From contig NZ_BONX01000002.1 in the NCBI RefSeq assembly GCF_016862935.1, forward strand, positions 124,001-188,000: a DNA stretch of 64,000 nt. The letters are read 5' to 3'. Positions 23,087 to 46,376 of the stretch are shown piece after piece. Source of the DNA: Plantactinospora mayteni (GTDB lineage Bacteria > Actinomycetota > Actinomycetes > Mycobacteriales > Micromonosporaceae). The notes below the pieces were generated by a model that had not been told where the DNA came from, made no database searches, and worked only from the letters and a program-made list of their open reading frames with translations. The position numbers and the translations under genes are program-made. Positions within the stretch are counted from its first letter, which is position 1. Each line of letters starts with the position of its first letter.

Positions 23087-24910
23087 ATGTCCAGGCGGTT
23101 GACCGCCCTACTCGCACTGGGCGCCCTCGTCGTGACAGGTCAGGCGGTCGGCACCGCCGCCGCACACGCCGGCGAGCCCCTGATCAGCATCGTCGACATC
23201 CCGTTGGACGCACCCGAGGCCCCCAATCTCGCCGGCCAGGGACAACTGGCGGTGACCCTGTTCAGTACCGCCACGGTGGACGCCAGCCGAATCGACCCCG
23301 GCACCGTCCGGCTCGGCCCGATCACCTCGGTCGACGCCCGCAACGGTGCGGCGGTCGCCCAGTGGGTCGGCGGCGGATTCCTCAGCACCGTGACCGACGC
23401 CAACTCCGACGGACGGTCCGACCTGCGGCTCTTCTTCGACAAGGAGGCGCTGCGGGCCACCGGGCACCTCAGCGCCGCCACCACCGCGCTGACCGTCTCC
23501 GGCCAACTACCCGACGGCCGGCTGGTGCGCGGCTCGGACACCGTGGCGCCCGCCGTCGTACTCGAAGTCAAGTTCGCCGAGACGGCGGCGGTACGCGGCA
23601 CGGACCGCGCGCTGCGCAGCGAGCGTGGCCGGGACCTGGGCCCGGTCCGGGCGGTCCTGGACCGGCACCGCGCCGTGGAACTCGGCCCGCTGCTGCCGGA
23701 GCAGACCCTCGGCCAGCTCTCCGGACTCGCCGCGACCGCGAAGGCCCGGTCCGGTCGGGCCACCCCCGACCTGGCCTCCTGGTATCACCTGACCCTGCCC
23801 GCCGGGGCGGACGTGTCGGCGGCACTGCGCGACCTGCTGGCCCTGCCCGACGTGGCGTACGCCTATCCGGCGCCGGAGGCGGCGCCGCCACCCGCCACCC
23901 CCGACTTCACCTCGATGCAGGGCTACCAGCGGCCGGCACCGCAGGGCGTCGACGCCGACTACGCGCGCCAGGACCCGCGCGCCCGGGGCGCGGGAATCCG
24001 GATCGTCGACCTGGAGTACGACTGGAACCCGTTCCACGAGGACCTCCAGCTCGACTGGTCCAGCGACCTCGGCGGTACCCAGTTCCCCCGCAACACCAGC
24101 TTCGCCGACGAGCACGGTACGGCGGTCTTCGGCGAACTGGTGGCCCAGCCGAACGGGTACGGGGTGACCGGCGGCGTGCCGGACGCCGACATGTTCGGCA
24201 TCTCGCCGATGCAGCGGCTGAGCAGCGGCCAGACCAGCTACCGGCCGGCGGCCGCGCTGTCGCACCTCGCCCAGTTCCTCCAGCCCGGCGACGCGGTACT
24301 CATCGAGCAGCAGACCGTCGGCCCGAACGGCGGTACCCGGTACGTCCCGGCCGAGTGGGTGCAGTCGGTGTTCGACGCGACGCTCCTACTCAGCCAGCTC
24401 GGCGCGGTCGTGGTGGCCACCGGCGGCAACGGGGGCGAGAACCTCGACGCTCCGGAGTTCCAGGGCCGGTTCAACCGGTCGGTCCGGGACTCCGGTGCGA
24501 TCATGGTCGGCGCCGGCTCCAGCACGAACCGGTCCCGGCTGAGCTTCTCGGTCTACGGCTCCCGCCTCGACCTCCAGGGCTGGGGGCAGAACATCACCAC
24601 CACCGGCAGCAACGGCAACCTCCAGGGCGGCACCAGCCCGGCGAACCTCAACATCCGCTACACCCGGTCGTTCGGCGGTACCTCCGGTGCCGGCCCGATC
24701 GTCACCGGCGCGGTGGTCGCGATCCAGTCCTACCTCAAGGCGACCGGCCGCCCGGTGATGACCGCCACGGCGGTGAGCAACCTGTTGAAGAGCACCGGCA
24801 CCCCGCAGGGCGGCGACACCGCCCAGCGGATCGGGCCGCTGCCGAACCTCCGGGCCGCCCTCGCGGCCGTCCCGCCGTCGCGGGCGGTCTCGACCTCCCC
24901 CGCCGGCTGA
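23087..24910 (+). CDS. Secreted subtilisin-like serine peptidase (S8)
   Basis: 607 aa from ATG 23087, with TTGGAGG upstream. A Sec signal peptide (hydrophobic ALLALGALVVTG, cleavage near AHAGE) is followed by a propeptide-like region of about 260 residues. The catalytic domain has Asp308 (IRIVDLEYD), His343 (DEHGTAVFGE) and Ser533 (FGGTSGAGP), with oxyanion segment VVATGGNGGEN. It would be an extracellular endopeptidase. It is the first of four secreted peptidases in 23-43 kb and could supply peptides to the hydroxyproline pathway, but its specificity is unknown. Confidence 0.9.
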   Translation: MSRRLTALLALGALVVTGQAVGTAAAHAGEPLISIVDIPLDAPEAPNLAGQGQLAVTLFSTATVDASRIDPGTVRLGPITSVDARNGAAVAQWVGGGFLSTVTDANSDGRSDLRLFFDKEALRATGHLSAATTALTVSGQLPDGRLVRGSDTVAPAVVLEVKFAETAAVRGTDRALRSERGRDLGPVRAVLDRHRAVELGPLLPEQTLGQLSGLAATAKARSGRATPDLASWYHLTLPAGADVSAALRDLLALPDVAYAYPAPEAAPPPATPDFTSMQGYQRPAPQGVDADYARQDPRARGAGIRIVDLEYDWNPFHEDLQLDWSSDLGGTQFPRNTSFADEHGTAVFGELVAQPNGYGVTGGVPDADMFGISPMQRLSSGQTSYRPAAALSHLAQFLQPGDAVLIEQQTVGPNGGTRYVPAEWVQSVFDATLLLSQLGAVVVATGGNGGENLDAPEFQGRFNRSVRDSGAIMVGAGSSTNRSRLSFSVYGSRLDLQGWGQNITTTGSNGNLQGGTSPANLNIRYTRSFGGTSGAGPIVTGAVVAIQSYLKATGRPVMTATAVSNLLKSTGTPQGGDTAQRIGPLPNLRAALAAVPPSRAVSTSPAG

Positions 24911-24940
24911 CGGCAGGCGGTCGCCCGACGTAGCCGAGCC

Positions 24941-26500: not shown

Positions 26501-26598
26501 CCCGACCCCCTCCCTCTCCACAGGCGCAGCACCGGCGCGCGGTGTGGTCGGTTTCCGGCTCCCGGGCGGAGGGGTGAGGTACCGGGGAGCGGCAGCGC

Positions 26599-26755: not shown

Positions 26756-28273
26756 TCAGGTCAGCGGTTCCCCGTTGACCCGGCGCGGAATGCCGAGCGG
26801 GTTCGCCGCGCGCAGCGCCGCCGGCAGCAACTCGTCGGGCATCCCCTGGTAGGCGACGGGACGCAGGAAGCGGCGCAGCGCGGTGACCCCGACCGAGGTG
26901 TGCAGCGAACCGGTGGTCGCAGGCCACGGCCCGCCGTGCTGCATCGCCCAGGTCACCGCCACCCCGGTCGGCCAGCCGTTCCAGATCACCCGGCCGGCCC
27001 GCCGGGCCACCAGCTCGACCACCCGGGCCGCCACCGGATCGCCGGCTCCCTCGCCGTGCACGGTGGCGGTCAGCGCGCCGGGTACGACGGCCAGCGCGGC
27101 CAGCAACTCCGCCTCGTCGGCGTACTCGACGAGCAGGGCGGCCGGGCCGAAGCACTCCGCCAGCAGCTCGTCGGCGTGCCGGACGAGGTCACCGGCCGAG
27201 ACCGCCAGCAGTTGTGCACCGGCCCGGTAGCCCGGCTGGTCGACCGGGGCGCGCGGCACCACCGTGCGTACCCCGGGCACCTGGGCCAGGGCGGCGGCAT
27301 CCTCCTGGTACGCGTCGCGGATCCGGGCGTTCAGCAGCGGGCCGAACGACGCCGCGGCGACCGCCTTGCCGAGTACCCCGTCGAGTTGGTGCCCGGCGGG
27401 CAGGAAGAGCAGGCCGGGCTTGGTGCAGAACTGGCCCGAGCCGAGGGTGACCGAGCCGACGAACGCCTCGGCGATCGGGTTGCCCCGGGCGGCGAGCGCC
27501 GCCGGGGTGACCACGGTCGGGTTCAGCGAGCCGAGTTCGCCGTAGAACGGGATCGGGTCGGGCCGGCCGGCGGCGAGGTCGGCCAGCGCCCGCCCACCGG
27601 CGGCGGAGCCGGTGAAGGCGCCGGCCGCGATCGCCGGATGGGTGATCAGGGCCCGGCCGGCCGCCATCCCCCGGACCACGGCGAACGTGCCGACCGGGGC
27701 GCCACCCTCGGCGAGCGCGTTGGTGACCAGCGCGCCGCACAGGTCGGAGAGCCCGGGATGGCCGGGATGCGCCTTCACCACCACCGGGCAGCCGGCGGCC
27801 AGCACGCTGGCCGTGTCGCCGCCGGGCACCGAGAAGGCGAGCGGGAAGTTCGACGCCGCGTAGACCGCGACCGGACCGACCGGGACCAGCATCCGGCGCA
27901 GGTCCGGTCGGGGCGCCGGCAGCGCGCCCGGGTCGGGCAGGTCGATCACCGCCTCCAGGAACGACCCGTCGAGTACGGCGTCGGCGAACATCTCCAACTG
28001 CACCCGGGTCCGGGTCAGCTCGGTGTGCAGCCGGGCGGTACCGAGGCCGGTCTCGGCGTCGCCGAGCGCGACGATCTCGTCCCGGGAGCCCTCCAGCGCG
28101 GCACCGATCCGGCGGAGCAGTTCCGCGCGGGTGGTCAACGGCAGTGCCGCGTACGCCGGGGCGGCGGCGGCCACCAGCCGGCAGACCGCGTCCAGTCCGT
28201 CGGTACCGGTGTGCGGCACCGGATCACCGGTCGGCGCGCCGGTGTACGGGTTCATCGGCTGGTCGGTGTCCAT
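26756..28273 (-). CDS. Alpha-ketoglutarate semialdehyde dehydrogenase (NADP+)
   Basis: 505 aa from ATG 28273, chosen because GGAG lies six bases upstream; GTG 28303 (overlapping the TlpA-like gene's stop) is the alternative. It belongs to the aldehyde dehydrogenase subgroup that oxidises 2,5-dioxovalerate, with NPYTGAP start, VAVYAASNFPLAFSVPGGDT, catalytic Glu in FYGELGSLNP and catalytic Cys283 in GSGQFCTKPG. It would convert alpha-ketoglutarate semialdehyde to 2-oxoglutarate, the last step of trans-4-hydroxyproline degradation. The first four enzymes are encoded at 31.9-37 kb, which supports this role over other semialdehydes. It sits in a separate transcription unit with a TlpA-like lipoprotein. 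Confidence 0.9.
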   Translation of the reverse strand: MDTDQPMNPYTGAPTGDPVPHTGTDGLDAVCRLVAAAAPAYAALPLTTRAELLRRIGAALEGSRDEIVALGDAETGLGTARLHTELTRTRVQLEMFADAVLDGSFLEAVIDLPDPGALPAPRPDLRRMLVPVGPVAVYAASNFPLAFSVPGGDTASVLAAGCPVVVKAHPGHPGLSDLCGALVTNALAEGGAPVGTFAVVRGMAAGRALITHPAIAAGAFTGSAAGGRALADLAAGRPDPIPFYGELGSLNPTVVTPAALAARGNPIAEAFVGSVTLGSGQFCTKPGLLFLPAGHQLDGVLGKAVAAASFGPLLNARIRDAYQEDAAALAQVPGVRTVVPRAPVDQPGYRAGAQLLAVSAGDLVRHADELLAECFGPAALLVEYADEAELLAALAVVPGALTATVHGEGAGDPVAARVVELVARRAGRVIWNGWPTGVAVTWAMQHGGPWPATTGSLHTSVGVTALRRFLRPVAYQGMPDELLPAALRAANPLGIPRRVNGEPLT

Positions 28274-28299
28274 ACCAGTCTCCGTCGGGGCAGTCGGGG

Positions 28300-28890
28300 T
28301 CACGGGGCGAGTACCAGTTTCCGCAGCATGCTGTCGAGGGTGGCGGCGTCCACCCCGCCGGGCCAGCCCCGCAGCAGCGTGCCGCCCTTGGCGACGAGCA
28401 CCACCGCCGGTGGCTCCCGGACCGCGTACGCCCGCGCGACGCGCTGGTCCGCGTCGACGAGTACCGGATATTCCACCCGGTGCTGGCGCAGGTATTCCTG
28501 GAGGGCGTCCGGCTCGTCCTCGCCGGCCACCCCGACGAAGACCACCCGGTCGCGGTGGCTGCGGGCCAGCTCACTGAGGCCGTCCTGCCGTTCGACACAG
28601 GTGTTGCACCAGGAGCTGAAGAAGGTCAGCACCACCGGCCGGTCGGCCCACAGTTCCGCCGTCGCCAGCGGGCTGCCGTCGGTGAGCGTACCGGTGACCT
28701 TCGGCGCGGCCGGCAGGTCGGTCGGGGCCGGTCGCAGCGCCAGGTCGGCCGGCACCGGACCGGGCAGTACGGCGGCGCCGCCGGCCACCGGGGTCGGCTC
28801 GGGGTCGGCGCCGTCACCGGTGCAGCCGGCCGCGACCAGCGCGACCAGCGCGGCGATCCCGACCACGGCGGCGAGGCGACGTCGGCGCAT
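28300..28890 (-). CDS. TlpA/thioredoxin-like lipoprotein
   Basis: 196 aa from ATG 28890. A basic start and hydrophobic stretch end in lipobox VAAGC, so it is anchored outside the membrane. The thioredoxin fold has the redox motif WCNTC within FFSSWCNTCVERQDGL and a cis-Pro segment REPPAVVLV. Likely an extracytoplasmic thiol-disulfide reductase. Its stop overlaps the GTG alternative start of the dehydrogenase. It could keep secreted enzymes of the region in the right redox state, but that is inference. Confidence 0.87.
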   Translation of the reverse strand: MRRRRLAAVVGIAALVALVAAGCTGDGADPEPTPVAGGAAVLPGPVPADLALRPAPTDLPAAPKVTGTLTDGSPLATAELWADRPVVLTFFSSWCNTCVERQDGLSELARSHRDRVVFVGVAGEDEPDALQEYLRQHRVEYPVLVDADQRVARAYAVREPPAVVLVAKGGTLLRGWPGGVDAATLDSMLRKLVLAP

Positions 28891-28910
28891 CACGCCTCCC
28901 CACCGCGCTC

Positions 28911-29030
28911 GTCGGCCCGGTGCGACCACGCGCGGCACCGACGACCGGGGGTCACGACGGCACCACCGCTGTCGGCCCGGTGCGACCACGCGCGGCACCG
29001 GCGTCCGGGGGTCACGACGGCACCACCGCG
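28911..29030. repeat. Two tandem 60-bp direct repeats
   Basis: 28911-28970 and 28971-29030 are near-identical (differences at the ACGACC/GCGTCC position and at the ends). Each unit contains a small dyad CGGTGC...GCACCG. The right copy covers the last codons and stop of the lipoprotein gene ending at 29012; the left copy is intergenic. It looks like a recent duplication of a gene end, possibly doubling a weak terminator. Confidence 0.9.
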
Positions 29031-29452
29031 ACCAGCGCGGGTCCCTCGCTGTCGTCCCTGGTCAGCGGGATCGGCCGGCGGTCGTCCACGATCAGCCGGT
29101 ACGCGTCCCGCTCGGCCACCGAGACCGGGACGGCGAACTCGCAGAACGTCGGGATGCGCGGCACTTCCAGGTCCTCCTCGAAGGTGCGGACCGACTTGCC
29201 GGCCGGCAGTTCGCCCTCGGCCAGCGTCGCGCCGTCGCCGTCCACCACCCGGTAGGCGGCCCTGTTGTGGAAGTAGGTGTACGGCCCGGTGCCGGCGCAC
29301 TCGACGCCCTCGGGCCGGATGTTGATGTCCCGGACCAGCACCCGGACGGTCATCGCGGCGCGCGGCTCCTCGTCGTCGCCGCAGCCGGCCAGCGGTGCGA
29401 GCAGCAGCAGCGGCAGTGCGGTCAGCAGGTGGCGGTAGCGGAGCCGCCGCAT
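29012..29452 (-). CDS. Small lipoprotein of unknown function
   Basis: 146 aa from ATG 29452 with GAGGGACG in front. The signal peptide ends in lipobox LAGC; the mature part is beta-rich with paired Cys (ECAG and FCEF) and no family I recognise. It lies between the metallopeptidase gene and the TlpA-like gene on the same strand, so it may be in one unit with them. The possible disulfide fits the redox lipoprotein next door. Confidence 0.75.
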   Translation of the reverse strand: MRRLRYRHLLTALPLLLLAPLAGCGDDEEPRAAMTVRVLVRDINIRPEGVECAGTGPYTYFHNRAAYRVVDGDGATLAEGELPAGKSVRTFEEDLEVPRIPTFCEFAVPVSVAERDAYRLIVDDRRPIPLTRDDSEGPALVAVVPS

Positions 29453-29532: not shown

Positions 29533-31575
29533 TCAGGACTTCTGGACGCGGCACTGCTTGGTCACGGTCTTCGTCGGGTCGCTCTCCGAGGTGGCGGTGA
29601 GCTTGACGACGCCGGTCTGGGTGGCCGACGGGGTCGCCCCGACCGAGACCCGGACCGTGCTGGACTTGCCGAACCCGGCCGTGGCCAGTGCGTTCGGCAC
29701 CTCCACCCGCCAGCCCTTGCCGCCCACCGAGGCGGAGAGCCGGTACACGTCGGACTTCAGGTATGCCGTCGCGTTCTCCGGGTGCGCCTGACCGCCGGCC
29801 GCGTACGAGCCGGTGTTGGTCAGGGTGAAGGAGCAGGTCACGCCCCGGTTGGTCGGCCGGGTCGCGGTGGTAACCTCCCCGTTCGACAGCGCCACGCCGT
29901 GACTGCTCGGCCCGGCGCCGTCGAGCGACCGCACCGCGACCGTGTACGACAGCACGCCGTCGGCGTTCCGCTTCAGGTCGAGTACGTAGAAGTGCAGCCG
30001 GTTGGCCTCGTCCACGTACTCGTACTCGCTGCCCGACCGGGTGCCGGCGTGGAACAGCGCGTCGGAGAGCTGCCGGTAGTCCCCCATGGTGATCTTCTGC
30101 GGGGTGCCGTCCGGCTGGTAGAAGTCGATCATGTCGATGTCCTGCGGGTTGGCGTCGACCACCCAGACGAAGGGAGCGCTGTCGGCGTTCTTCGTCTTGG
30201 AGACCAGCACGCCGCTGTCCGGGGTGAACGAGTCCGCACCCATCCGGTCCACGACCTCGACCGTGTAGTTGTTGTACGCGCCGCCGTCGCAGAGCGGGTT
30301 GGTGCTGGTGTCGCAGGCCGGCGACCGGTCCCGGTTCATCGCGATGTTGATCCCGGTGAGCCCCTTCGGACCGGCGTCCACCGCCCGGGCGGTCACCGTC
30401 GCCACCACCATGCCGGAGGTGGCCAGCGCCTCCCGGCTCAGCCGCAGCAGGTTCTCCTCACCGAGCAGACCGATCTTTATCTTGTCCCGCACGGTGTGCA
30501 GCGAACCCATCGAGCCGCCGTTGACCGGTGGGATCTGCCACCGGGTGTGCGGTCCGCCGGGCCCGTTGAACGAGCCGCGCGACATCATGCTCCAGATGCC
30601 GGTGTACGCCCGCCGCAACGGCGTGCCGTACGGGTTGTTGTAGTTGTCCCCGATGCTGAGCAGGTGGCTCAGCTCGTGCGCGTACACGCCCATGCCGGAG
30701 CTCTCGGCCTGGGTCGAGGAGCCGCCACCGGCGTTCGGCCAGATGGTCGACGCCGCCTTCCAGGAGGTCCACTCGACATACCGGGTACGCGCGTGGTTCG
30801 GCAGGTTCGGGTCCGGCGGACCCCACGCGTCCGGTACGTCCTCCTTGGTCTGGAACATCATCTGGCCGAACTCCTGCCAGGTGGACGACTCGTCCTGCCC
30901 GGCGGAGAGGATGAAGACCAGCTCGAACGAGTTGGCCACCTCCTCGCCGACCGCCGCCCGCCAGGCACCCAGCCCGTCGGTCCGGATGTTCTTCGCGCAC
31001 TGCTCGCCACTCGGGCAGGCGCCCGGGTTGAAGCCGTTGTCGATGCCGTACTGGTAGGACTTCGCCGGCATCTCGTACGGGCCGAACCCGGTCAGGTCCA
31101 CCCCGTACCGGCCGTTGGAGTCCTGCATCCAGTACTCGTGCAGGGTGTGGCCCTTGTTCAGGCCGTTCGGCTTGTTGAGGAAATCGGTGTAGAAGGTCGA
31201 CACCTGGTCACGCGGGATGTTCGCCGCCGTCGACTGGGGGTTGCCGAAGACCGTCGACCGGGCCCGCTGGGTGACCACGAACGGCTGGTCCGGGTAGTCG
31301 AGGGTGACCAGAGCGATCTTGAAGTTGCGGACCGAGCCGGCCACGGTCGGGTCGGCCCAGTTCGTGTTCGGCGGGGTGACGTAGTCGTCCCAGGTCATCC
31401 CGTCCGGGTTCACCCACGCCTGCGGGTCGAGTACGTCGAACGGGCCGTTGCCGCCGGCCGGGTTGCCCGGTGCGGCGGCGGCCGGCGTGCTGGCGGCGCC
31501 GACGATCAGCGCTGCCGCGAGCGTCGCGGCCAGCGTCGACCGCCACGCCGTGCGTCTGGTGGACAGTAGGTGCAT
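29533..31575 (-). CDS. Secreted HExxHxxxxxD metallopeptidase 1 (M6-like)
   Basis: 680 aa from ATG 31575, with GAGGTGACTGG in front. A Sec signal peptide (LAATLAAALIVGAAS, cleavage after AAA) is followed by a large domain resembling M6/immune-inhibitor-A-type peptidases. The zinc site is HELSHLLSIGD (His300, Glu301, His304, likely third ligand Asp310), with Met-turn-like WSMMSRGSFNGPGGP downstream. The C-terminal 100 residues form a beta-sandwich-like domain. It is a close paralogue of the protein at 37068-39101. Both flank the hydroxyproline operon, suggesting that they release hydroxyproline peptides outside the cell. Confidence 0.88.
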   Translation of the reverse strand: MHLLSTRRTAWRSTLAATLAAALIVGAASTPAAAAPGNPAGGNGPFDVLDPQAWVNPDGMTWDDYVTPPNTNWADPTVAGSVRNFKIALVTLDYPDQPFVVTQRARSTVFGNPQSTAANIPRDQVSTFYTDFLNKPNGLNKGHTLHEYWMQDSNGRYGVDLTGFGPYEMPAKSYQYGIDNGFNPGACPSGEQCAKNIRTDGLGAWRAAVGEEVANSFELVFILSAGQDESSTWQEFGQMMFQTKEDVPDAWGPPDPNLPNHARTRYVEWTSWKAASTIWPNAGGGSSTQAESSGMGVYAHELSHLLSIGDNYNNPYGTPLRRAYTGIWSMMSRGSFNGPGGPHTRWQIPPVNGGSMGSLHTVRDKIKIGLLGEENLLRLSREALATSGMVVATVTARAVDAGPKGLTGINIAMNRDRSPACDTSTNPLCDGGAYNNYTVEVVDRMGADSFTPDSGVLVSKTKNADSAPFVWVVDANPQDIDMIDFYQPDGTPQKITMGDYRQLSDALFHAGTRSGSEYEYVDEANRLHFYVLDLKRNADGVLSYTVAVRSLDGAGPSSHGVALSNGEVTTATRPTNRGVTCSFTLTNTGSYAAGGQAHPENATAYLKSDVYRLSASVGGKGWRVEVPNALATAGFGKSSTVRVSVGATPSATQTGVVKLTATSESDPTKTVTKQCRVQKS

Positions 31576-31913: not shown

Positions 31914-32918
31914 TCAGATCTGGAAGCCCTCGGGGAACGGGTCCTCGGGGTCGAGCAGATATTGCGCGGTGCCGGTGACCCAGGCCCGGCCGGTCACCGT
32001 CGGCACCACCGCCGGCAGCTCGCCAACCGTGGTGGTCTCGACCAGCCGGCCGGTGAACCGGGTCCCGATCACCGACTCGTTGACGAACGGCGTGTCCAGG
32101 TCGAGCAGGCCCCGGGCGTGCCGCTGGGCCATCCGGGCCGACGTGCCGGTGCCGCACGGCGACCGGTCCACCCAGCCGGGATGGATCACCACCGCGTTGC
32201 GGGCGTCCGCGCCGTCGGTGCCGTCCTGCACCACCTGGACGTGCCGGCAGTCGTCGATCGCCGGGATCGTCGGGTGCCGGGGCGGCGCCTGCTCGTTGAT
32301 CGCGTCCATGATCCGCAGCCCGCGCCGGATCAGCTCCGGCACCGCCGCCGGCTCGACCGGCAGTCCCAGGTCGGCGGCGTCCACGATGGCGTAGAAGTTG
32401 CCGCCGAACGCCATGTCGTAGCGGATGGTGCCGATCTCCCCGCCCACCTCGACCTTCCGGTCGGCGGCGAGCAGGAACGACGGCACGTTCCGCAGCGTCA
32501 CCCCGGTCGCCCGGCCGTCCCGGACCGCGACGTCCACGCTGACCAGCCCCGCCGGGGTGTCCAGCCGGATGGTGGTGACCGGCTCGACCACCGGCACCAT
32601 CCCGGTCTCGACCAGCACCGTGGCCACCCCGATGGTGCCGTGCCCGCACATCGGCAGGCAGCCGGATACCTCGACGAACAGCACCCCGACGTCGGCGTCC
32701 GGCCGGGTCGGCGGCTGGAGGATCGCCCCGGACATCGCCGAGTGACCGCGCGGCTCGAACATCAGCAGCCGGCGCAGCCCGTCCCGGTCCCGCTCGAAGA
32801 GCCGCTTGCGCTCCAGCATGGTGTCGCCGGGCAGCACCCCGACGCCACCGGTGATCACCCGGGTCGGCATCCCCTCGGTGTGCGAGTCGACGGCGTGCAG
32901 CACCAGCCGGCTACGCAT
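31914..32918 (-). CDS. 4-hydroxyproline 2-epimerase
   Basis: 334 aa of the proline racemase superfamily. Both catalytic Cys are present: Cys91 in MCGHGTIG and Cys255 in SPCGTGTSARMA. The Ser before the second Cys and the DSHTEGMPTRV start fit hydroxyproline epimerases; trans-3-hydroxyproline dehydratases have Thr in place of one Cys. It converts trans-4-hydroxy-L-proline to cis-4-hydroxy-D-proline. The start overlaps the preceding gene by eight bases (ATGCGTAG). It is the last gene of the overlapping operon whose other members encode the next two steps. Confidence 0.93.
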   Translation of the reverse strand: MRSRLVLHAVDSHTEGMPTRVITGGVGVLPGDTMLERKRLFERDRDGLRRLLMFEPRGHSAMSGAILQPPTRPDADVGVLFVEVSGCLPMCGHGTIGVATVLVETGMVPVVEPVTTIRLDTPAGLVSVDVAVRDGRATGVTLRNVPSFLLAADRKVEVGGEIGTIRYDMAFGGNFYAIVDAADLGLPVEPAAVPELIRRGLRIMDAINEQAPPRHPTIPAIDDCRHVQVVQDGTDGADARNAVVIHPGWVDRSPCGTGTSARMAQRHARGLLDLDTPFVNESVIGTRFTGRLVETTTVGELPAVVPTVTGRAWVTGTAQYLLDPEDPFPEGFQI

Positions 32919-35219: not shown

Positions 35220-35776
35220 CCGGCTACCTCCCCTTCGCTCGGCCCTGGACCGAGCACATCCTCGGACCCGACCCCGTTTCCGGCACCGACCCCGTTGCCT
35301 CCCGGCTCCTGTCCGGCGGGCGCCGCGCCCGGTGGTGGCTGTCCGGCGGGCGCCGCGCCCGGTAGGCGCCGGCCGGCGGGGGCCGCGCCCGGCGAGGGCT
35401 GGCCGGCGTGGACCGCGTCCGCAGGATGCTGGCCGGGTTCGGCCGTGCCTGCGGTGGCCCGACCGGTGTCGACGGTGTCGCCGGGCGCGGCCGGGCGCAG
35501 GCAGGCCCGCACGCCCGGCTCACCGTTGCAGACGACCAGGCAGTCGAAGCAGATCCCGATGCCGCAGAAGACGCCGCGCGGCCGGTCGGCGAACCGGGTC
35601 CGCCGGGTCGTCCGGCGGCCGGCGGCCAGCAGTGCCGCCGCCAGGGTCTGGCCGGCGCGCACCGGTACGGGTTCGCCGTCGACGGCGATGGTGAACTCCG
35701 CCGGCCGACTCGGGTCGGGCCGTGGTAACCCACCCGGAACGTCGGCGCGGCTGGCGACGGGCTCAGGCGGCGGCAC
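35216..35776 (-). CDS. D-hydroxyproline dehydrogenase, [2Fe-2S] subunit (HcnA-like)
   Basis: 186 aa from GTG 35776, chosen because GGAG lies six bases upstream; it overlaps the preceding gene by 14 bases. Residues 27-100 form a short ferredoxin-like domain with cluster ligands Cys71, Cys76, Cys79 and Cys92 (CGIGICFDC...RAC). After it comes an unusual 80-residue tail of Ala/Pro/Gly with repeated PGAAPAG units, about 33 bases each in DNA and mirrored in the low-complexity sequence 35325-35400. Family members usually end soon after the last Cys, so the tail is an expansion. It transfers electrons within the dehydrogenase. Confidence 0.85.
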   Translation of the reverse strand: MPPPEPVASRADVPGGLPRPDPSRPAEFTIAVDGEPVPVRAGQTLAAALLAAGRRTTRRTRFADRPRGVFCGIGICFDCLVVCNGEPGVRACLRPAAPGDTVDTGRATAGTAEPGQHPADAVHAGQPSPGAAPAGRRLPGAAPAGQPPPGAAPAGQEPGGNGVGAGNGVGSEDVLGPGPSEGEVAG

Positions 35777-39101: not shown

Positions 39102-39463
39102 CGCATCTCCTTCGGGTCGGGGTGCTCGAATCCGTGCTGAGCAGGCTGAGGAGGATGGGGCGGATCGGATCGGGTCGGGCGGCTCGGCTCAGTCGGGGCG
39201 GGGCGGGGCGGGGCGCGGGAGGTGGCGCCACGGTCGGTGGATGTCGCAAGCACGGTAAGGACATCGACGTTTCCGGGTCTTCGGACAGATGCAGGAAGCC
39301 CGCTGGGCGGATCAGGACTTCTGTCGGGACTTGTGCCGTACGCCCCGAACCACTTGCGTACCGGGCCGGTGTCGTCGGAGGGTAAGGACCGGTGGTGCCC
39401 GACGTCGGTGCCTCCGGCGGAGCAGGCCGCCCGGCCCCGGCCACGAGGAGGATCAGCGAAGGC
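39102..39463. promoter_or_regulatory. Divergent promoter region of metallopeptidase 2 and pucR-type gene
   Basis: 362 bp with no gene. It contains four GGGG runs separated by single C residues (39195-39213, plus strand), a canonical G-quadruplex pattern, and imperfect copies of GGGACTT/GGACTT around 39313-39331. No convincing -10 box is visible. Confidence 0.55.
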
Positions 39464-40696
39464 ATGCACACGGAGCTGCAACGCATCGTCGACGCGGTGG
39501 CGGCCCGGGTGGGCCGGCCGGCGCTGATCGAGGACCGCCGGCAGCGGGTGGTCGTGTACAGCGAGCACACCGGACTGATGGACGACGTACGCCGAACCTC
39601 CATCCTGCGCCGGCACACCACGCCCGAGGTCATCTCCTGGTTCCACGACGTGGGCATCATGAAGGCCCGTACGCCGGTCCGCACCCCGGCCTGCCCCGAG
39701 CTGGACCTGCTGCCCCGGCTCTGCGTACCGATCACCCACCACGACCTGCTGCTCGGCTTCGTCTGGTTCATCGACGCCGACGGCGGCATGACCGACGCCG
39801 ACATCGAGACCGTCACCCGGGCGATGTCCGACCTCTCGCTCGCCCTCTACCGGGAGAACCTGCTCGGCGAACTGGCCTCGCAGCGGGAGGCGGAGGCGGC
39901 CCGGACGCTGCTGGTGGACAGTCCGGAGATCCGTGCCGAGGCGGTCCGTTCGCTGCTCGCCGAGGGTGTGGTCGCGGCCGACGGGCCGGCCAACGCGGTG
40001 GTGGCGCAGCTCGTCCCGGCCCGGGGGCAGGTGCTCGACGAGGTGGCCCGGATCGCCCTGGAACAGATGCTGGTGGCGACCCGCCGCTGGATCGGGGTAC
40101 GCGAGGCGCTGCACCTGATCCGGCACGACCAGGGCGTACTGCTGATCTCCGGTGGTCAGGGCGCCGGCCGCCCGTCCGCCGAGGCGACCGCCAAGCACCT
40201 GAGCGAGGCGCTGCACAAGGCGACCCGGAGCCTGCCCTCGGTGGCCCGGGTGGTGGTCGGGATCGGCGAGCCCCGCCCCCGGCTCGCCGACGTGGTGCAC
40301 GCCTACGACGAGGCGCTCCAGTCGGCCCGGGTGGGTGGGCAGCTCTCCGCGCTCGGGCCGATCATCGCCTGGTCGAACCTCGGCATCTATCGGATGCTGT
40401 CCCGGATGAACGGCCAGCATCTCGACGTCGCGGGCGTGCACCCGGGGCTGGAACGGCTACTCCGCGACGACTCCAACCAGGTACTGCTGGAGACGCTGGA
40501 GGCGTACCTCGACCTTGCCGGGAACGCGCACGCCACGGCAGAGCAGCTACGGCTGCACCGGACCACGCTCTACTACCGGCTGCACCGGGTGGAGCAGCTC
40601 GCCGAGACCGACCTCAAGGACGGCAACGAACGGCTCTGCCTGCACCTGGCGCTGAAACTCGGCCGGCTCACCGGCCACTACCGACCGGCGAACTGA
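39464..40696 (+). CDS. PucR-family transcriptional regulator
   Basis: 410 aa from ATG 39464. The N-terminal sensory domain is GAF-like, followed by a degenerate cyclase-like middle. The C-terminal helix-turn-helix LLETLEAYLDLAGNAHATAE then LRLHRTTLYYRLHRVEQL is the hallmark of the PucR/CdaR group. Some members respond to proline (PutR). Placed divergently from metallopeptidase 2 and upstream of the hydroxyproline genes, it is the likely sensor of hydroxyproline or a pathway intermediate. Activator or repressor cannot be told. Confidence 0.88.
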   Translation: MHTELQRIVDAVAARVGRPALIEDRRQRVVVYSEHTGLMDDVRRTSILRRHTTPEVISWFHDVGIMKARTPVRTPACPELDLLPRLCVPITHHDLLLGFVWFIDADGGMTDADIETVTRAMSDLSLALYRENLLGELASQREAEAARTLLVDSPEIRAEAVRSLLAEGVVAADGPANAVVAQLVPARGQVLDEVARIALEQMLVATRRWIGVREALHLIRHDQGVLLISGGQGAGRPSAEATAKHLSEALHKATRSLPSVARVVVGIGEPRPRLADVVHAYDEALQSARVGGQLSALGPIIAWSNLGIYRMLSRMNGQHLDVAGVHPGLERLLRDDSNQVLLETLEAYLDLAGNAHATAEQLRLHRTTLYYRLHRVEQLAETDLKDGNERLCLHLALKLGRLTGHYRPAN

Positions 40697-40828: not shown

Positions 40829-42955
40829 TCACCGGCCGACCGGGGAGCGGGCGGCTGCCCGGACCAGGGCGGAGCGCTGCCGGGCGGTGATCACCTCGGC
40901 GGCGACGAGCCGGTCGGCGACCTCGGTCACGTGCCGGACGAACCGGCCGTGGTCCGGCCACTCCTCGGTGTCCAGGACGTGGTCGTTGACGGTGCAGGTG
41001 CCGGCCAGCGCCCGGTTCGGCACCCCGCTGTCGATCCCGCCGACCACCACGGTCGGCCGGGTGTCCGGCTGGGCGCAGACCGGCATCGCCAGCGGCCCGC
41101 CGACGACGGGCAGCTCGACCGAGGTCCGGGCCAGGTCGACGGTGAGCACGGTGCCCGGCGCGGGGTGCAGGGTGAACTCGTGGTCGGTCGACCAGATCAT
41201 CAGCCCGATCCGCGCTCCGGCGGGGACGACCTGGTCGTCCGGCTGCAACGGTACGGTCAGCTCGACGAACCTGCCCGGCTTGAGCGGGGTGCCGTGTCGC
41301 AGCGAGCGGTGGTTCTGCGGGTCGGCCCAGCCCCGGGTGATGATGCTGGTCGTCGCGCCCCGGGTGCTGGACTCGCAGTCGGCGGCACCGGTCCAGGGCA
41401 GCCGGACCAGTGCCACCGACAGGTTCGCCGCCGGCCTGCTGGCCGCCAGCCGGAGCCGGACCTGCGGGGTGCCGGAGATGTGCACCGGGGCGCTGAGTTC
41501 CGGGGTGACGTAGAGCAGCCGGTTCGGCGAGACCTGGCTGGCCAGGGTGCCGGCGTTGCAGGCCAGGTTGCCGGCGTCGACGAGCTGCTCGGTGCCACTG
41601 TCCGCCCGGGCCAGCGAGGTCAACCCGCCGGCCGTGTCGCCACCGCGTTGCAGCGTCAGGCTGACCGGCGCCGCCGCCGGGTTCGGATAGTCGGCGTACG
41701 GGGTGAGCTGGCTCGTTCCCGTCTCGTTGCGGACGATCCAGGCGCGCGGATCGTCCTCGACACCGTTGCGCACTCCGTAGAGATAGCGGGTGAACCACCG
41801 GTTGCGCAGGTCCAGCGGTGGCGCCCCGCCGTGCCCGCCCTGGTGGAAGTACGCCTGCGTCGGGGTGCCCTGTGCCTTCAGCGCGTCGAGGATCCGGACG
41901 CTGTGCTCGGGTACCACGTTCCAGTCGTTGAAGGCGTGGGCCATCAGGGTGGCCGCCCGGACCCGGCGTACCGAGGGCAGGTAGTCCCGGCTGGCCCAGA
42001 AGTCGTTGTAGTCGCCGGTCGCCCGGTCCTGGTACCGGTTCATCTCGTCGACCCGGACGTGCTGGGCGCAGTACTCCCGGCGGTCCGGATAGCCGCTGCT
42101 GATGTAGTCGAAGAGGTAGTCGATGTCCTCGCCGACCCAGCCGCCCGGGTTCCGGACCAGCCCGTTCGACCGGTAGTAGTGGTAGTAGGAGGTGTTCGGC
42201 GCGATCGGGATGATCGCCTCCAGCCCCCGTACCCCGGTGGTCGCGGCGGCCAGCGGAAGCGTCCCGTTGTACGACGTACCCGTCATCCCGACCCTGCCGG
42301 TCGACCAGCCGGTGGCCGAGACCCGCTGCCCGCCCTCGACGCTGGTGTAGCCGCTGGCCCGGCCGTTGAGCCAGTCCACGACCGCCTTCGGGGCCAGCGA
42401 CTCGTTGGCGCCGCCGACTGTCGGACAGCCCTGGGACAGCCCGGTGCCGGGCGAGTCGGAGTGCACCACCGCGAAGCCGCGCGGTACCCAGGTGTTGACC
42501 TCGCTGGTCGACACGGCGGTCCGGTCCGCCCGGTGCGGGATCGGCGGTGGTGAGGTCCGGGCCGGTGGCCGCTGACCCAGCTCGGTGTTGACGTTCCAGA
42601 AGTACTGCCGCTGGGTCGAGGCGGTGCCGGCGTAGTACGGGCTGCTCTCGTAGACGACCGGGACCTTCAGCCCGGCGGCGGTCGGCGCCGGCCGGGTGAC
42701 GTCCACGTGCATGCGGTCGCGCCGGCCGTCGCCGTCGGAGTCGAACTCGGTCTCGACCCAGAGCCGCTCCCTGATCCAGGTCGCGGGGTCGGCGAACTCG
42801 GGAACGACCTGGGCCTGCCCGTCGACGAAGACCGGCCCGACCGGGGGCGGATCGGCGGCGGCGGGCCCGGCGATCCCGGTGGCGGCGGCGAGCGCCACCA
42901 GTGCCGGTACGACCAGCAGGGCGCAGGTCCTGCGCCGCGTGCTCCCACGTGTCAT
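40829..42955 (-). CDS. Secreted Xaa-Pro dipeptidyl-peptidase (S15)
   Basis: 708 aa from ATG 42955. Signal peptide LLVVPALVALAAATG, cleavage near AAA. The alpha/beta-hydrolase of peptidase family S15 shows the nucleophile Ser228 in GMTGTSYNGT, an acid in HAFNDWNV and a His in HQGGHGGAP; the C-terminal half is the jelly-roll domain. It removes Xaa-Pro dipeptides from N-termini and may accept hydroxyproline at P1. In this setting it would trim Pro/Hyp-rich peptides made by the secreted endopeptidases. Its own promoter is in the 496-bp divergent region shared with the GH127 gene. Confidence 0.9.
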   Translation of the reverse strand: MTRGSTRRRTCALLVVPALVALAAATGIAGPAAADPPPVGPVFVDGQAQVVPEFADPATWIRERLWVETEFDSDGDGRRDRMHVDVTRPAPTAAGLKVPVVYESSPYYAGTASTQRQYFWNVNTELGQRPPARTSPPPIPHRADRTAVSTSEVNTWVPRGFAVVHSDSPGTGLSQGCPTVGGANESLAPKAVVDWLNGRASGYTSVEGGQRVSATGWSTGRVGMTGTSYNGTLPLAAATTGVRGLEAIIPIAPNTSYYHYYRSNGLVRNPGGWVGEDIDYLFDYISSGYPDRREYCAQHVRVDEMNRYQDRATGDYNDFWASRDYLPSVRRVRAATLMAHAFNDWNVVPEHSVRILDALKAQGTPTQAYFHQGGHGGAPPLDLRNRWFTRYLYGVRNGVEDDPRAWIVRNETGTSQLTPYADYPNPAAAPVSLTLQRGGDTAGGLTSLARADSGTEQLVDAGNLACNAGTLASQVSPNRLLYVTPELSAPVHISGTPQVRLRLAASRPAANLSVALVRLPWTGAADCESSTRGATTSIITRGWADPQNHRSLRHGTPLKPGRFVELTVPLQPDDQVVPAGARIGLMIWSTDHEFTLHPAPGTVLTVDLARTSVELPVVGGPLAMPVCAQPDTRPTVVVGGIDSGVPNRALAGTCTVNDHVLDTEEWPDHGRFVRHVTEVADRLVAAEVITARQRSALVRAAARSPVGR

Positions 42956-43451
42956 CGTCCATCACCCCAGGTCAACGCGGCGCCCGGCGAGTACTCCGGA
43001 CGGCGCCGACGCGCGTCGGTGCACTGTGGAGCGTGCGGTGCCGACGAGCGGGGCGAGCTGCCGTCCGGTGAGCCGACCGTATCGGGCGAGATCATTCCCC
43101 GAAACCCGACACCTGACGGAACTTCGGCCGTCGCGGCCCGTCAGACCGTCGGGGTCCGGTGCCGACGGTGCACCGCGTCGACGCGGTTGATCCGCATCCG
43201 GCTATTGACCCGACGCGACCTGTGAGCGCTAACATGCTCTGCACCGCCGGATCTTCCGGCTTCCCGCCACGAGAGTTCGACGTCGACGCGCCGCCGCCCG
43301 ACGCACGGCGGCGCCCGTCCCCTGACCCGGCGTACCCGATCGATCGGGCGCGTCGGAGCCCGCCCGGACCTTTCGTCCACAACGGATCGGGGATGTCCGG
43401 CCACCCGTCCCGGCCGCGACCGCGAGCGTCGGCAGCACAGAGGAGGCCACC
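42956..43451. other. 496-bp divergent regulatory region (Xaa-Pro peptidase / GH127)
   Basis: No gene. The GH127 side has a promoter and operator at 43205-43235, giving a leader of about 210 nt that is unexplained. On the Xaa-Pro peptidase side I see no confident promoter. Confidence 0.6.
43205..43235 (+). promoter_or_regulatory. GH127 promoter with overlapping LacI-type operator
   Basis: TTGACC (43205-43210), 19 bases, TAACAT (43230-43235). The near-perfect palindrome TGTGAGCGCTAACA (43221-43234, one mismatched pair) covers the spacer and -10 and matches the GAGCGCTC-cored operators of sugar LacI repressors. No lacI gene is adjacent, and the operator differs from that at 21835. Confidence 0.65.
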
Positions 43452-46376
43452 GTGACCAACCACCTCTCCCGACGGGACGCCCTGCGCCTGGGCGCGCTGG
43501 CGACCGCCGCACCCGCCGCCGCGTCGGTCGTCCCGGCCCCGGCCGCCGCAGCGCCGCCGCCCGCTGGCACCGGGACCGGCGGCCACCCCGGACCGGTCCC
43601 CCGGCCCGGCTGGGTCGCGGAGAACTGGGTGGTCAAGCCGTTCGCCCTCAACCAGGTGGCGCTGCGCGACGGGATCTTCCAGCAGAAGCGCGACCGGATG
43701 CTCAACTACGCGCGGAACTATCCGGGCACCGGCGGCGTCCTCGACGGCCCCGACCGGATGCTGCACCTGTTCCGGGCCAACGCCGGACTGCCCGCCCCCG
43801 GCACCTGGCCCGGCGGCTGGGACACCCCGAACCACCTGCTCCGGGGCCACTTCACCGGGCACTACCTGACGATGCTGGCGCAGTGCTACGCCGACACCGG
43901 CGAGGAGATCTTCCGCCAGAAGCTCGACTACCTGGTGACCGAGCTGGGCACGTGCCAGCGGGAACTGGACCGGCGCAACCCCGGCCGGGTCGCCGGCCGC
44001 TCCGGGCGGGCCGTCCGGCTCGGCGACCCGCACCCCAACCAGTACGTGCTGATGCCGGCCGGCATCCTCGACGGCGTCACCGACCTCACGGTCGCCACCT
44101 GGGTGAACCTGGCGACCGCGCAGGCCGCCGCCCGGATCTTCAGTTTCGGCGCCGGACCGCAGTCCTACCTGTCGCTGACCGCCCGGATCGCGGCCGGCGG
44201 CGGCCCGAGGTTCGCGATCACCACCGGCGGCAGCGGCAGCGAGCAACGGGTCGACGCCACCGTGCCCGTCCCGGTCGGCGAGTGGGCGCACCTGGCGGTC
44301 ACCCTCTCCACCGCCGATGCCACCGCCCGGATCTACCTCGACGGCACCGAGGTCGGCGCCGGGCCGGTGACGCTCGGCCCGGCCAGTCTCGGCCGGACCA
44401 CCGCCAACTGGATCGGCCGCTCCCCCGCCACCAACGATCCGCTGCTCAACGCGACAGTGGACGACCTTCAGATCTACGACCGGGCACTGAGCGGGGACGA
44501 GGTCCACGCGCTCGCCGCCCCGGACGGGTCGCCGGCCACTACTCCGCTGGCGTGGTACCGGTTCGAGGAGGACGGCGAGACCGCCGCCGACCACTCCGGC
44601 CACGGGTACGCCGGCACGATCGTCGGCACCGCCCACCCCGGTTTCCTGGCCGCGTTCCCGGAGGGCCAGTTCAGCCGCCTCGAACCGCCGACCTTCCAGC
44701 CGAACAACGGGCCGAACGCCGTCTGGGCGGTCTGGTACACCTGCCACAAGATCATGCGCGGCCTGCTGAACGCGTACCAGTTGGCCGGCAACGAGGAGGC
44801 GCTGGGGATCGTCCTGCGGATGGGCGACTGGGTGCACAGTCGACTCAGCCGGCTCAGCCGGGCCGACCTGGACCGGATGTGGGACATCTACAGCGCCGGT
44901 GAGGCCGGCTCGATGAACGAGGTGATGGCCGAACTCTCCGCCCTCGCCCCCGACCGCGAGCGGCGCAGACGATACCTCGACACGGCGAAGGCGTTCACCT
45001 TCAGCACCCTCTTCGCCGCCTCGCTGGCCGAGCGCGACGAACTCAGCGGCCGGCACGCCAACCAGTACATGGCGCCGAACATCGGCTATCTGCGGATCTT
45101 CGAGCGGACCGGCGAGCGGGACTACCAGCGGGCGGCCCGGAACTTCTGGTCCATGGTGGTGCCGCACCGCATCTTCAGCAACGGCGGCGCCGGGCAGAGC
45201 GAGCACTTCCGGGCGCGCGGCATCATCACCTCCGGGTTCACCTCCGGCAACGACCCCCGGCACGCCGAGACCTGCTGCGCCTACAACATGCTCCGGCTGA
45301 CCCGGAACCTCTTCTTCCACGACCCGGACCCGGCGTACATGGACTACTACGAGAAGGCGCTGCACAACCAGATCCTCAGCTCCCGGCGGGACGTCGACAG
45401 CGTCACCAGCACCGAGGTCACCTACCACCAGAACATGTGGCCCGGCCGGTCCCGGCGGATCGGCAACGTCGTGGAATACAGCCGGTACGGCGGCAACGGA
45501 AGCTGCTGCAACGGCACCGGCCTGGAGAGCCACACCAAATACCAGGAGTCGATCTACTTCCGCTCGGCCGACGACTCGGCGCTCTACGTCAACCTCTTCA
45601 TCGCCTCGGTGCTGAGCTGGCCGGAGCGGGGCTTCGTGATCAGCCAGGAGACGGCCTATCCGACCGAGGGCACCAGTACGCTCCGGTTCGACCGTGGGCA
45701 CGGCCGGCTCAAGGTCAGGCTGCGGGTGCCGTCCTGGGCCGGCCCCGACCACACGGTACGGGTCAACGGGGTTCGGCAGCGGGTCAAGGCCGTACCCGGC
45801 AGCTATCTCACCCTGGACCGGCGGTGGCGCGAGGGCGACCGGATCGACATCTCGATGCCGCTGCGCTTCCGGGTGGAGAAGGCCCTCGACGACAGGTCCG
45901 TGCAGTCCATCATGTACGGCCCGACCCTGATGGTCGTCCGGGACGCCACCCCCAGCTACCGCGAGTTCACCTTCTTTCCCACCGTCAAGTTGGACGGCGA
46001 CCTCGGCAGGACGATCCAGCCCACCGAGACACCGATGCACTTCAGCACCCACGGCTACCTGCTGGCCCCGTACTACGTCTCCGACCCGGTGCCGGGCGAG
46101 TTCAACGCCTACCACCCGTACGTCCGGCGGGTCGAGCCGGAGGTGGTGTTCGGGTCGGTCGGCACCGGCGTACCCAACGACGGGCTGCGCGACGCCGACG
46201 GCGAGACCTTCCTCGACCGGGTCTGGGCGGCGGCACCGTTCGAACGGCACGGAGACTTCCTCCGTACCGTCGAGGAGGTCTCGGACGAGTGGCTGGCGGC
46301 CGGCCGGCACACCGCCGAGCAACGCCGGACCATCCTCGTCGCGGCGGCCCGGTCCCGCCCGGACCTGGAGCCCTGA
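43452..46376 (+). CDS. Secreted GH127 beta-L-arabinofuranosidase with LamG insertion
   Basis: 974 aa from ATG 43452. A Tat signal (SRRDALRLGAL) is followed by the GH127 (alpha/alpha)6 barrel. The zinc/nucleophile residues are all present: Glu606, Cys608 (ETCCAYN), Cys685 and Cys686 (GSCCNGTG). The 77-residue step from Cys608 to Cys685 equals that between Cys340 and Cys417 in the hydroxyproline-arabinoside enzyme HypBA1. A concanavalin-like LamG domain (about 185-385) interrupts the barrel, with its usual N-terminal strand (WYRFEEDGETAADHSGHGY) placed last, so it appears circularly permuted. It would remove terminal beta-L-arabinofuranose, e.g. from hydroxyproline-linked chains. Confidence 0.9.
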   Translation: MTNHLSRRDALRLGALATAAPAAASVVPAPAAAAPPPAGTGTGGHPGPVPRPGWVAENWVVKPFALNQVALRDGIFQQKRDRMLNYARNYPGTGGVLDGPDRMLHLFRANAGLPAPGTWPGGWDTPNHLLRGHFTGHYLTMLAQCYADTGEEIFRQKLDYLVTELGTCQRELDRRNPGRVAGRSGRAVRLGDPHPNQYVLMPAGILDGVTDLTVATWVNLATAQAAARIFSFGAGPQSYLSLTARIAAGGGPRFAITTGGSGSEQRVDATVPVPVGEWAHLAVTLSTADATARIYLDGTEVGAGPVTLGPASLGRTTANWIGRSPATNDPLLNATVDDLQIYDRALSGDEVHALAAPDGSPATTPLAWYRFEEDGETAADHSGHGYAGTIVGTAHPGFLAAFPEGQFSRLEPPTFQPNNGPNAVWAVWYTCHKIMRGLLNAYQLAGNEEALGIVLRMGDWVHSRLSRLSRADLDRMWDIYSAGEAGSMNEVMAELSALAPDRERRRRYLDTAKAFTFSTLFAASLAERDELSGRHANQYMAPNIGYLRIFERTGERDYQRAARNFWSMVVPHRIFSNGGAGQSEHFRARGIITSGFTSGNDPRHAETCCAYNMLRLTRNLFFHDPDPAYMDYYEKALHNQILSSRRDVDSVTSTEVTYHQNMWPGRSRRIGNVVEYSRYGGNGSCCNGTGLESHTKYQESIYFRSADDSALYVNLFIASVLSWPERGFVISQETAYPTEGTSTLRFDRGHGRLKVRLRVPSWAGPDHTVRVNGVRQRVKAVPGSYLTLDRRWREGDRIDISMPLRFRVEKALDDRSVQSIMYGPTLMVVRDATPSYREFTFFPTVKLDGDLGRTIQPTETPMHFSTHGYLLAPYYVSDPVPGEFNAYHPYVRRVEPEVVFGSVGTGVPNDGLRDADGETFLDRVWAAAPFERHGDFLRTVEEVSDEWLAAGRHTAEQRRTILVAAARSRPDLEP

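Follow-up and report, generated by a model that had tools for sequence, protein, structure and literature searches.

The published bacterial systems that we found for plant hydroxyproline-rich glycoproteins (HRGPs), such as extensins, serve either the use of the sugar or the cutting of the protein, as far as the available portions of these papers describe them, a limit that applies to every citation below. On the sugar side, the glycoside hydrolase (GH) family 146 members XeHypBA1 and Bll4HypBA1 cleave arabinofuranose (Araf) from hydroxyproline (Hyp) at the Araf-beta1-Hyp bond, the GH146 enzyme Bll3HypBA1 cleaves Araf-beta1,3-Araf, and BT0349, likewise of GH146, uses arabinan-derived substrates (PMC10850190). 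On the protein side, extensins are cleaved by Svx, a secreted zinc metallopeptidase of Pectobacterium atrosepticum (PMC13164431), while for Hyp itself a reference system is the SCO6289-6293 cluster of Streptomyces coelicolor, where deletion of the epimerase abolishes growth on L-hydroxyproline (PMC6608401). Here, we describe a locus of Plantactinospora mayteni, at positions 23,087 to 46,376 of a 64,000-nucleotide stretch (contig NZ_BONX01000002.1, 124,001 to 188,000; the whole stretch is referred to as the window, has a G+C content of 72% and comes from a genome of 9.84 Mb), in which a hydroxyproline operon lies among secreted peptidases and a gene of the GH127/146 fold.

We read it as a modular locus for feeding on 4-hydroxyproline-rich proteins, most likely plant HRGPs such as extensins, and put the probability of this reading at roughly 0.6. 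Its core is the operon together with M6 metallopeptidases, and GH146 and peptidases of the S8 and S15 families recurrently accompany some part of the locus; similar clusters in several related bacteria suggest dedicated feeding on plant glycoproteins. A preliminary description of the stretch had named the Hyp enzymes, a subtilase, two M6-like peptidases, an S15 peptidase and a GH127-fold gene, all of which domain matches confirm at the positions it gave, and had overlooked a PucR-type regulator, a lipoprotein-like protein and a thioredoxin-fold protein (Table 1).

A hydroxyproline operon with embedded metallopeptidases

Ten codirectional minus-strand genes, running from 39101 down to 26756, encode in turn the metallopeptidase M6b, the DAO, Fer2_4 and BFD/FAD subunits of a dehydrogenase, a DHDPS-fold deaminase, the epimerase, the metallopeptidase M6a, a lipoprotein-like and a TlpA-like protein, and an aldehyde dehydrogenase. 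Several adjacent genes overlap; with the start of M6a placed at 31575, the largest gap, that from the epimerase to M6a, measures about 340 bases. Divergent from M6b stands the PucR gene, followed by the S15 gene (minus strand) and the GH127-fold gene (plus strand), and the opposite flank is formed by the subtilase (plus strand). Two catalytic cysteines distinguish epimerases from dehydratases in the proline racemase family; the window epimerase has both cysteine blocks, PMCGHG and SPCGTGT, and scores 356 bits against the NCBIfam 4-hydroxyproline epimerase model, slightly under the cut-off of 376. With a three-subunit dehydrogenase and a DHDPS-fold deaminase adjacent to this two-cysteine protein, the genes qualify as a trans-4-hydroxyproline operon, the aldehyde dehydrogenase falling below the cut-off for all 25 NCBIfam models listed. 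At 80 named loci centred on a relative of the epimerase, the stretch gives a match to DHDPS in 77 cases and to DAO in 69, and the catabolic part of the locus is of an ordinary, known type.

The surroundings of the operon were compared across 121 Micromonosporaceae genomes, the window genome (G000) counted in, 56 of which bear an epimerase match at E up to 1e-60; besides the window, the remaining 55 epimerase places were all examined, as were 84 of 100 such places class-wide (the omitted ones being the window and the 15 lowest-ranked, none of whose genomes exceeds 2.2 Mb). The analysis also covered the 80 named loci and 32 further loci of the family, some stretches being short through contig ends (G104, G385 and others). 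Genera, genomes and loci carry g, G and L numbers, respectively, and in the family counts linkage of M6 or GH127/146 means a position within 12 kb of the epimerase. M6 matches at E up to 0.001 occur in 51 of the 121 genomes. Linked M6 genes are present in 12 of the 56 epimerase genomes where 0.08 would be expected; strong matches (E up to 1e-90) are carried by 22 of the 56, with a near copy in 12 of these 22, from genera g1, g11, g32, g37 and g22. The linkage of M6 to hydroxyproline genes is far above chance, and the pairing of Hyp catabolism with secreted peptidases in the preliminary description is borne out by M6a inside the operon and by linkage in five genera.

The gene order usual in most g1 and g11 genomes examined is PucR, (M6b), DAO, Fer2, BFD, DHDPS, epimerase, M6a, lipoprotein, TlpA and aldehyde dehydrogenase, M6b being missing from the g11 genomes. 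Exceptions are G068, with M6a 7.7 kb from the epimerase, and G058, with the aldehyde dehydrogenase beyond S8 and GH146. M6a comes close behind the epimerase in g32 (G031 and G077), and the copy near the epimerase in G037 and G021 is M6b-like. The two window peptidases are 57% identical; an HExxH motif is present in all 29 M6 proteins checked (overlapping loci repeat some genes), and a comparison of M6a with solved structures gave no relative below E 0.4. Operon and M6 together are a conserved proteolytic hydroxyproline module in part of the Micromonosporaceae; no M6 gene was seen in the 32 further family loci.

The lipoprotein-like and TlpA-like proteins (28300-29452 in the window) accompany M6a even where hydroxyproline genes are lacking (G008, G113), and they are possibly helpers of the peptidase. 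The lipoprotein-like protein has no match in Pfam or NCBIfam.

GH146 enzymes beside hydroxyproline genes

The GH127-fold enzyme of the window has a leader of the twin-arginine type (SRRDALRLGALA; leader peptides were assigned by eye throughout) and a Laminin_G_3 domain inserted at residues 196-351, inside the catalytic domain. Among solved structures it comes nearest to 5opj, at 245 bits, and 8k7y, at 132 bits, taken here to be the GH146 enzymes BT0349 and Bll3HypBA1, respectively, while 3wkw, presumably the GH127 enzyme HypBA1, gives 38 bits. The preliminary description had called it a GH127 enzyme, from a family known to act on Hyp-arabinofuranosides; the fold stands, but the HypBA1 label gives way to GH146 affinity, since the protein aligns most closely with 5opj and 8k7y and has ETC and SCC motifs. 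The family is marked by zinc ligands in E-x-C and C-C motifs and by a cysteine nucleophile; in Bll3HypBA1 the zinc ligands are E723, C725, C804 and C805 (PMC10850190). Because GH146 members differ in substrate (PMC10850190), specificity is not readable from the family alone, and judged from sequence a GH146 affinity would suit hydroxyproline-arabinosides at least as well as a GH127 one.

At least 39 of the 56 epimerase genomes carry a GH127/146 gene, and in nine it is linked to the epimerase, against 0.44 expected (genus-level P about 0.007); the match list ended at about E 4e-84, and positions were taken from P0001 matches at E up to 1e-60 and from the examined stretches, so that a distant GH127 near an epimerase may escape this count. 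The nine are G000, G032 and G058 in g1, G085, G069, G049 and G117 in g12, and G084 and G006 in g7. Class-wide, 11 of the 84 loci have a GH127/146 match, and these represent 11 of the 12 epimerase genomes of g88 (Jiangella), the twelfth, G385, having a contig of merely 6.2 kb; of these matches, that in G282 is cut by the contig end, and that in G303 consists of pieces, with no GH127 gene called there. Of the named loci, five have one: two from Microbacterium, one each from Jiangella muralis and Streptomyces tailanensis, and a fragment in Promicromonospora kroppenstedtii. In a phylogeny comprising 19 linked and 8 unlinked GH127/146 proteins (27 in all), the linked ones are scattered and do not form one group; at least five changes of linkage are needed, four of them forced by supported branches, with gains or losses both possible, and the clustering of linkage labels is modest (29 of 500 shuffles were as low). 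The neighbourhood of GH127 and Hyp genes seen in the preliminary description reappears here as a GH127/146 theme in several lineages. The repeated occurrence of GH146 together with hydroxyproline genes points towards plant Hyp-arabinosides and away from collagen.

Some of these genera present a second arrangement, built around peptide import. In g12, loci L112 and L114 contain, in order, a peptide-binding protein (SBP5), an ABC transporter, an S33-type hydrolase, an M24 aminopeptidase P-like protein, GH146, a GntR regulator, the hydroxyproline genes and an aldehyde dehydrogenase; L113 and, in part, L115 have the same order with the transporter cut by the stretch edge, and the GH146 proteins of L112-L115 show no evident signal peptide. 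The hydroxyproline genes stand first in L116 and L117 (g7), and in Microbacterium (L013, from Microbacterium sp. UFMG61, and L014) S33, M24 and GH146 come before DHDPS and the epimerase, L013 also containing parts of a transporter. The S33 and M24 names hold at the family level, three scanned S33 proteins giving about 33 bits or less against a prolyl aminopeptidase cut-off of 260 and three M24 proteins 184-198 bits against a Xaa-Pro aminopeptidase cut-off of 465. In L125 (G108) the transporter-S33-M24-GH146-GntR series is on a different contig from the epimerase, and in L171 and L178 S33, M24 and GntR accompany hydroxyproline genes with no GH146 within the stretch; judging from these arrangements, GH146 appears to be an optional part of a route from peptides to hydroxyproline. 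M24 genes of the aminopeptidase P-like type were seen near hydroxyproline operons in 21 of the 80 named, 16 of the 84 class-wide and nine of the 32 further family loci (raw counts).

A broader proposition, held tentatively and with somewhat less than even confidence, is that Actinobacteria assembled loci for whole HRGP use more than once and to two designs. One would be extracellular, with M6/S15-type peptidases, a secreted GH146 and the operon, as in the window and, for GH146, in Jiangella. In the other, arabinosylated Hyp peptides would be imported intact, trimmed by Xaa-Pro aminopeptidase and prolyl-peptidase-like enzymes, deglycosylated by a cytosolic GH146 and oxidized to 2-oxoglutarate.

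Peptidase partners and regulation

Matches to the subtilase-like S8 protein at E up to 1e-135 occur in seven of the 121 family genomes. G000, G058 and G092 have the gene near the operon; its distance from the epimerase is some 20 kb in G032 and large in G023. It adjoins a GH146 gene in G042 and G075 and lies within 2 kb of one in G058. A separate observation concerns L118 (G042), where genes for a subtilase, a GH146 enzyme and an M64-type peptidase stand side by side at 6686-13464, with the epimerase on another contig; this trio is a possible further glycoprotein-degrading set.

The S15 protein of the window exceeds its NCBIfam cut-off, has the GxSYxG block and is related to the solved structures 6nff and 1lns. 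A counterpart (77% match) was found in only one other of the 121 genomes, G037, at about 150 kb from the epimerase of that genome. Paralogous S15 genes (37-41% identical over part of the query) lie within 5 kb of M6a, by hand count, in 10 of 42 other strong-M6 genomes from four genera: G112, G103, G057 and G091 (g32), G008 (g9), G034, G079, G060 and G120 (g34), and G037 (g37). The same adjacency was read in loci L088, L089 and L111, the S15 of L111 (G008), the one scanned, giving 656 bits against the Xaa-Pro dipeptidyl-peptidase cut-off of 642; elsewhere the distance is about 23 kb (G003, G024) or 36-98 kb (G010, G048, G058, G068). As these ten genomes either lack the epimerase or have it in another place, the direct partner of S15-type peptidases would seem to be M6a, not the hydroxyproline genes. 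The place of S15 in the set first described is accordingly split: the window gene itself is not conserved, while paralogs recur near M6a away from any epimerase. The co-occurrence in related genomes proposed at that time came out above expectation for M6 and for GH127/146, with the window S15 unlinked.

The C-terminal ends of S15 (residues 612-708; 40832-41122) and GH146 (residues 882-974; 46095-46373) are homologous over about 70 residues (E about 4e-8), a module common to both proteins. Searching 3,781 proteins from the fetched loci and the window with the S15 tail returned S15 and GH127/146 proteins only at E up to 0.01; in Pfam the S15 tail scores best against the end of Abhydrolase_10 (E 0.011), and the GH146 tail has no match. 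A Streptomyces fungicidicus protein annotated as GH16 has it as well, so that the module is a more general one and weak evidence.

A PucR ortholog heads the operon in g1, g11 and g32, and the two blocks between PucR and M6b that form the candidate operator are conserved across g1 and g11, with partial conservation in G020 and G031. A LacI-type palindrome, TGTGAGCGCTAACA, lies 231 bases upstream of the GH146 start. In 4.41 Mb of fetched sequence (stretches partly overlapping) there are ten TGNNAGCGCTNNCA sites; such a site is found within 500 bases upstream of 4 of 17 GH146 genes (the window, G245, G211 and G293) and not of the other 13, and the LacI-like palindrome was not found upstream of GH146 in G032 or G058. 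The LacI-like sites suggest sugar control of some GH146 genes and argue against a single regulon in the window. One operator motif common to all parts was considered and rejected.

The genes at 24941-26521 (an SDR epimerase, nucleotidyl transferase pieces and an SDR protein) were considered as a part of the system and rejected; they are taken as a truncated sugar-nucleotide remnant because G032 has a longer set (L092, 13871-16580). Beyond the subtilase, at 18532-22917, are a LacI regulator and a sugar ABC transporter, near GFO/IDH/MocA and xylose-isomerase-like genes, and the genes for its substrate-binding protein and for LacI are conserved beside S8 in G032 and G092.

Table 1. Genes and candidate regulatory sites of the locus, in window coordinates
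Feature	Position	Strand	Evidence or remark
Secreted subtilase-like S8 protein	23087..24910	+	Peptidase_S8 E 2.5e-17
Aldehyde dehydrogenase, probable alpha-ketoglutaric semialdehyde dehydrogenase, final operon gene	26756..28303	-	Aldedh E 7.2e-36; role suggested by position
Thioredoxin-fold (TlpA/ResA-like) protein, lipoprotein-like leader	28300..28866	-	AhpC-TSA/Redoxin; travels with M6a
Small lipoprotein-like protein	29012..29452	-	Adjoins M6a in g1, g11, g9, g21
M6a, secreted M6-type metallopeptidase, HELSH, inside operon	29533..31575 (open reading frame to 31692)	-	TIGR03296 159 bits, cut-off 110.8
4-Hydroxyproline epimerase, proline racemase family	31914..32918	-	Pro_racemase PF05544 E 4.7e-130
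DHDPS-fold deaminase of pyrroline-4-hydroxy-2-carboxylate	32911..33807 (inside open reading frame 32911-34551)	-	PF00701 E 3.3e-52
D-hydroxyproline dehydrogenase alpha subunit, FAD and BFD [2Fe-2S]	33804..35219	-	Pyr_redox_2 and Fer2_BFD
D-hydroxyproline dehydrogenase gamma subunit, 2Fe-2S	35216..35780, start approximate (inside open reading frame 35216-35845)	-	Fer2_4 E 1.5e-24
D-hydroxyproline dehydrogenase beta subunit, FAD, DAO fold	35763..36959	-	DAO E 5.6e-73
M6b, second secreted M6-like metallopeptidase, HEIAH, operon head	37068..39101	-	TIGR03296 93 bits, under cut-off
Candidate operator between PucR and M6b, TCTTCGGACAGATGC and TTCTGTCGG	39278..39327		Alignment conservation
PucR-type transcription regulator, divergent from operon	39392..40696	+	HTH_30 E 3.2e-19
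Secreted S15 Xaa-Pro dipeptidyl-peptidase, lineage-specific copy	40829..42955	-	NF003780 727 bits, cut-off 642; GTSYNG block
LacI-type operator-like palindrome, TGTGAGCGCTAACA	43221..43234		Sole exact match in window
GH127/GH146-fold beta-L-arabinofuranosidase (predicted), twin-arginine-like leader, inserted Laminin_G_3	43452..46376	+	PF07944 E 2.3e-76

Alternatives and comparison with known systems

If the locus serves HRGP use, the M6 metallopeptidases and the subtilase would cut the protein outside the cell, where the S15 peptidase may trim proline-containing dipeptides and the GH146-like enzyme would remove arabinofuranose from hydroxyproline. The released peptides would then be imported and reduced to hydroxyproline, the genes annotated from 23087 to 46986 including no peptide transporter. 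Within the cell, the epimerase, three-subunit dehydrogenase, deaminase and aldehyde dehydrogenase would convert hydroxyproline to 2-oxoglutarate by an established pathway whose genes are present. The PucR-type regulator probably controls the operon, including both M6 genes, and GH146 is probably under separate control.

A number of observations weigh against this reading. M6a occurs with the lipoprotein, TlpA and aldehyde dehydrogenase genes in G113, and with lipoprotein, TlpA and PucR in G008, in both cases without hydroxyproline genes, and in G020 PucR, a DHDPS gene and M6a are together with the epimerase elsewhere. The strong M6 match is not near the epimerase in 10 of the 22 epimerase genomes that carry one; class-wide, M6 was seen in two of 84 loci, both from g101 and near the stretch end, and the 80 named loci showed no M6, S8 or S15 gene. 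Epimerase genes are found in only three of the ten S15-M6a genomes (G103, G091 and G037), never beside that M6a. As for GH146, the class-wide matches all come from a single genus, orthologs of 70-75% occur in G091 and G021 without hydroxyproline genes in the stretches examined, and members of the family also attack arabinan and arabinogalactan-protein side chains (PMC10850190). The window gene runs opposite to the operon at a distance of 10.5 kb from the epimerase and has a LacI-like site of its own; its counterpart is missing beside the operon in G092 and has moved to the other side in G058, and searches for the PucR-region motif upstream of GH146, S8 and M6a found none. The proposal that all parts are encoded as one conserved unit, made in the preliminary description, is rejected on the varying place of GH127 and on the lack of conservation of the window S15; the parts are not all syntenic and, from their separate operator-like sites, appear not to share one regulator, as a single co-regulated HRGP operon would.

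Collagen, to our knowledge, carries no arabinofuranose on its hydroxyproline, and the main rival explanation, which we consider unlikely, is that the locus scavenges collagen or gelatin, with M6 as the collagen-cutting arm of an ordinary operon, S15 trimming the products and GH146 an unrelated plant-arabinan enzyme nearby. Such a reading would accommodate the much stronger linkage of M6 than of GH146, the association of S15 with M6, which is uninformative on arabinose, and the apparent LacI-type control of GH146 itself, and it has a parallel in the HypR regulon of S. coelicolor, in which the same hydroxyproline operon is combined with a putative M9 collagenase (PMC6608401). It does not account for GH127/146 genes beside hydroxyproline genes in several lineages, nor for their place in one gene series with them in Microbacterium, g12 and g7.

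Were this instead a plain hydroxyproline operon with chance neighbours, S8, S15 and GH127 being accessory secreted enzymes without a joint role, one would understand why the window S15 gene has no conserved position, why the position of GH127 varies within the genus and why S8, S15 and GH127 are all lacking near the hydroxyproline genes of most named and class-wide loci; yet several genera have M6 within the operon itself, co-location of GH127/146 exceeds expectation and S15 recurs beside M6a, and we regard chance as improbable. The target might also be small arabinosylated plant signalling peptides of the CLE type in the rhizosphere, and not wall extensins. CLE-type peptides carry Hyp-O-arabinosides, according to the literature available to us, and the importer design of L112-L117 would suit small glycopeptides, but the secreted endopeptidases and secreted GH146 fit a polymer better, and we give this explanation very little credence. 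HRGP feeding remains our preferred reading, and if it is correct the combination would serve as a genomic marker for HRGP use and would flag the M6 peptidases and the cytosolic GH146 enzymes as testable on defined substrates.

Among known systems, the HypR regulon of S. coelicolor (SCO6289-6293 and SCO5912) is alike in the order DAO, Fer2, BFD, DHDPS, epimerase and in including a secreted metallopeptidase; it differs in its GntR-type regulator, in an M9 peptidase (SCO5912) encoded elsewhere on the chromosome and in a remote semialdehyde dehydrogenase, where the window has a PucR-type regulator and M6 peptidases within the operon, and the available text names no arabinofuranosidase among its genes (PMC6608401). 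The HypBA1/HypBA2/HypAA system of Bifidobacterium longum and XeHypBA1/BA2/AA of Xanthomonas euvesicatoria likewise direct GH127/146 enzymes at Hyp-arabinosides (see also PMC7263609), but are described as sugar-directed, with no hydroxyproline catabolism genes named in the portions available (PMC10850190, PMC6085000), and have GH121 and GH43 partners, neither of which is among the annotated window genes. Svx resembles the window peptidases as a secreted metallopeptidase, extensin cleavage being its own feature, and differs as a two-domain gluzincin with an acyltransferase-like domain that is not tied, in that account, to hydroxyproline catabolism (PMC13164431). For Latescibacteria, where HRGP use was proposed in silico and GH127 was likewise assigned to extensin, the available text gives a genome-wide inventory and no locus joining GH127 to hydroxyproline catabolism (PMC4454575). 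Our literature search, which lay outside most subscription journals and drew on partial texts, found no paper joining an arabinofuranosidase to hydroxyproline catabolic genes. The enzymes are known and their combination is new; if our reading holds, deglycosylation, proteolysis and hydroxyproline oxidation in one class of locus would together lead all the way from cell-wall protein into central metabolism.

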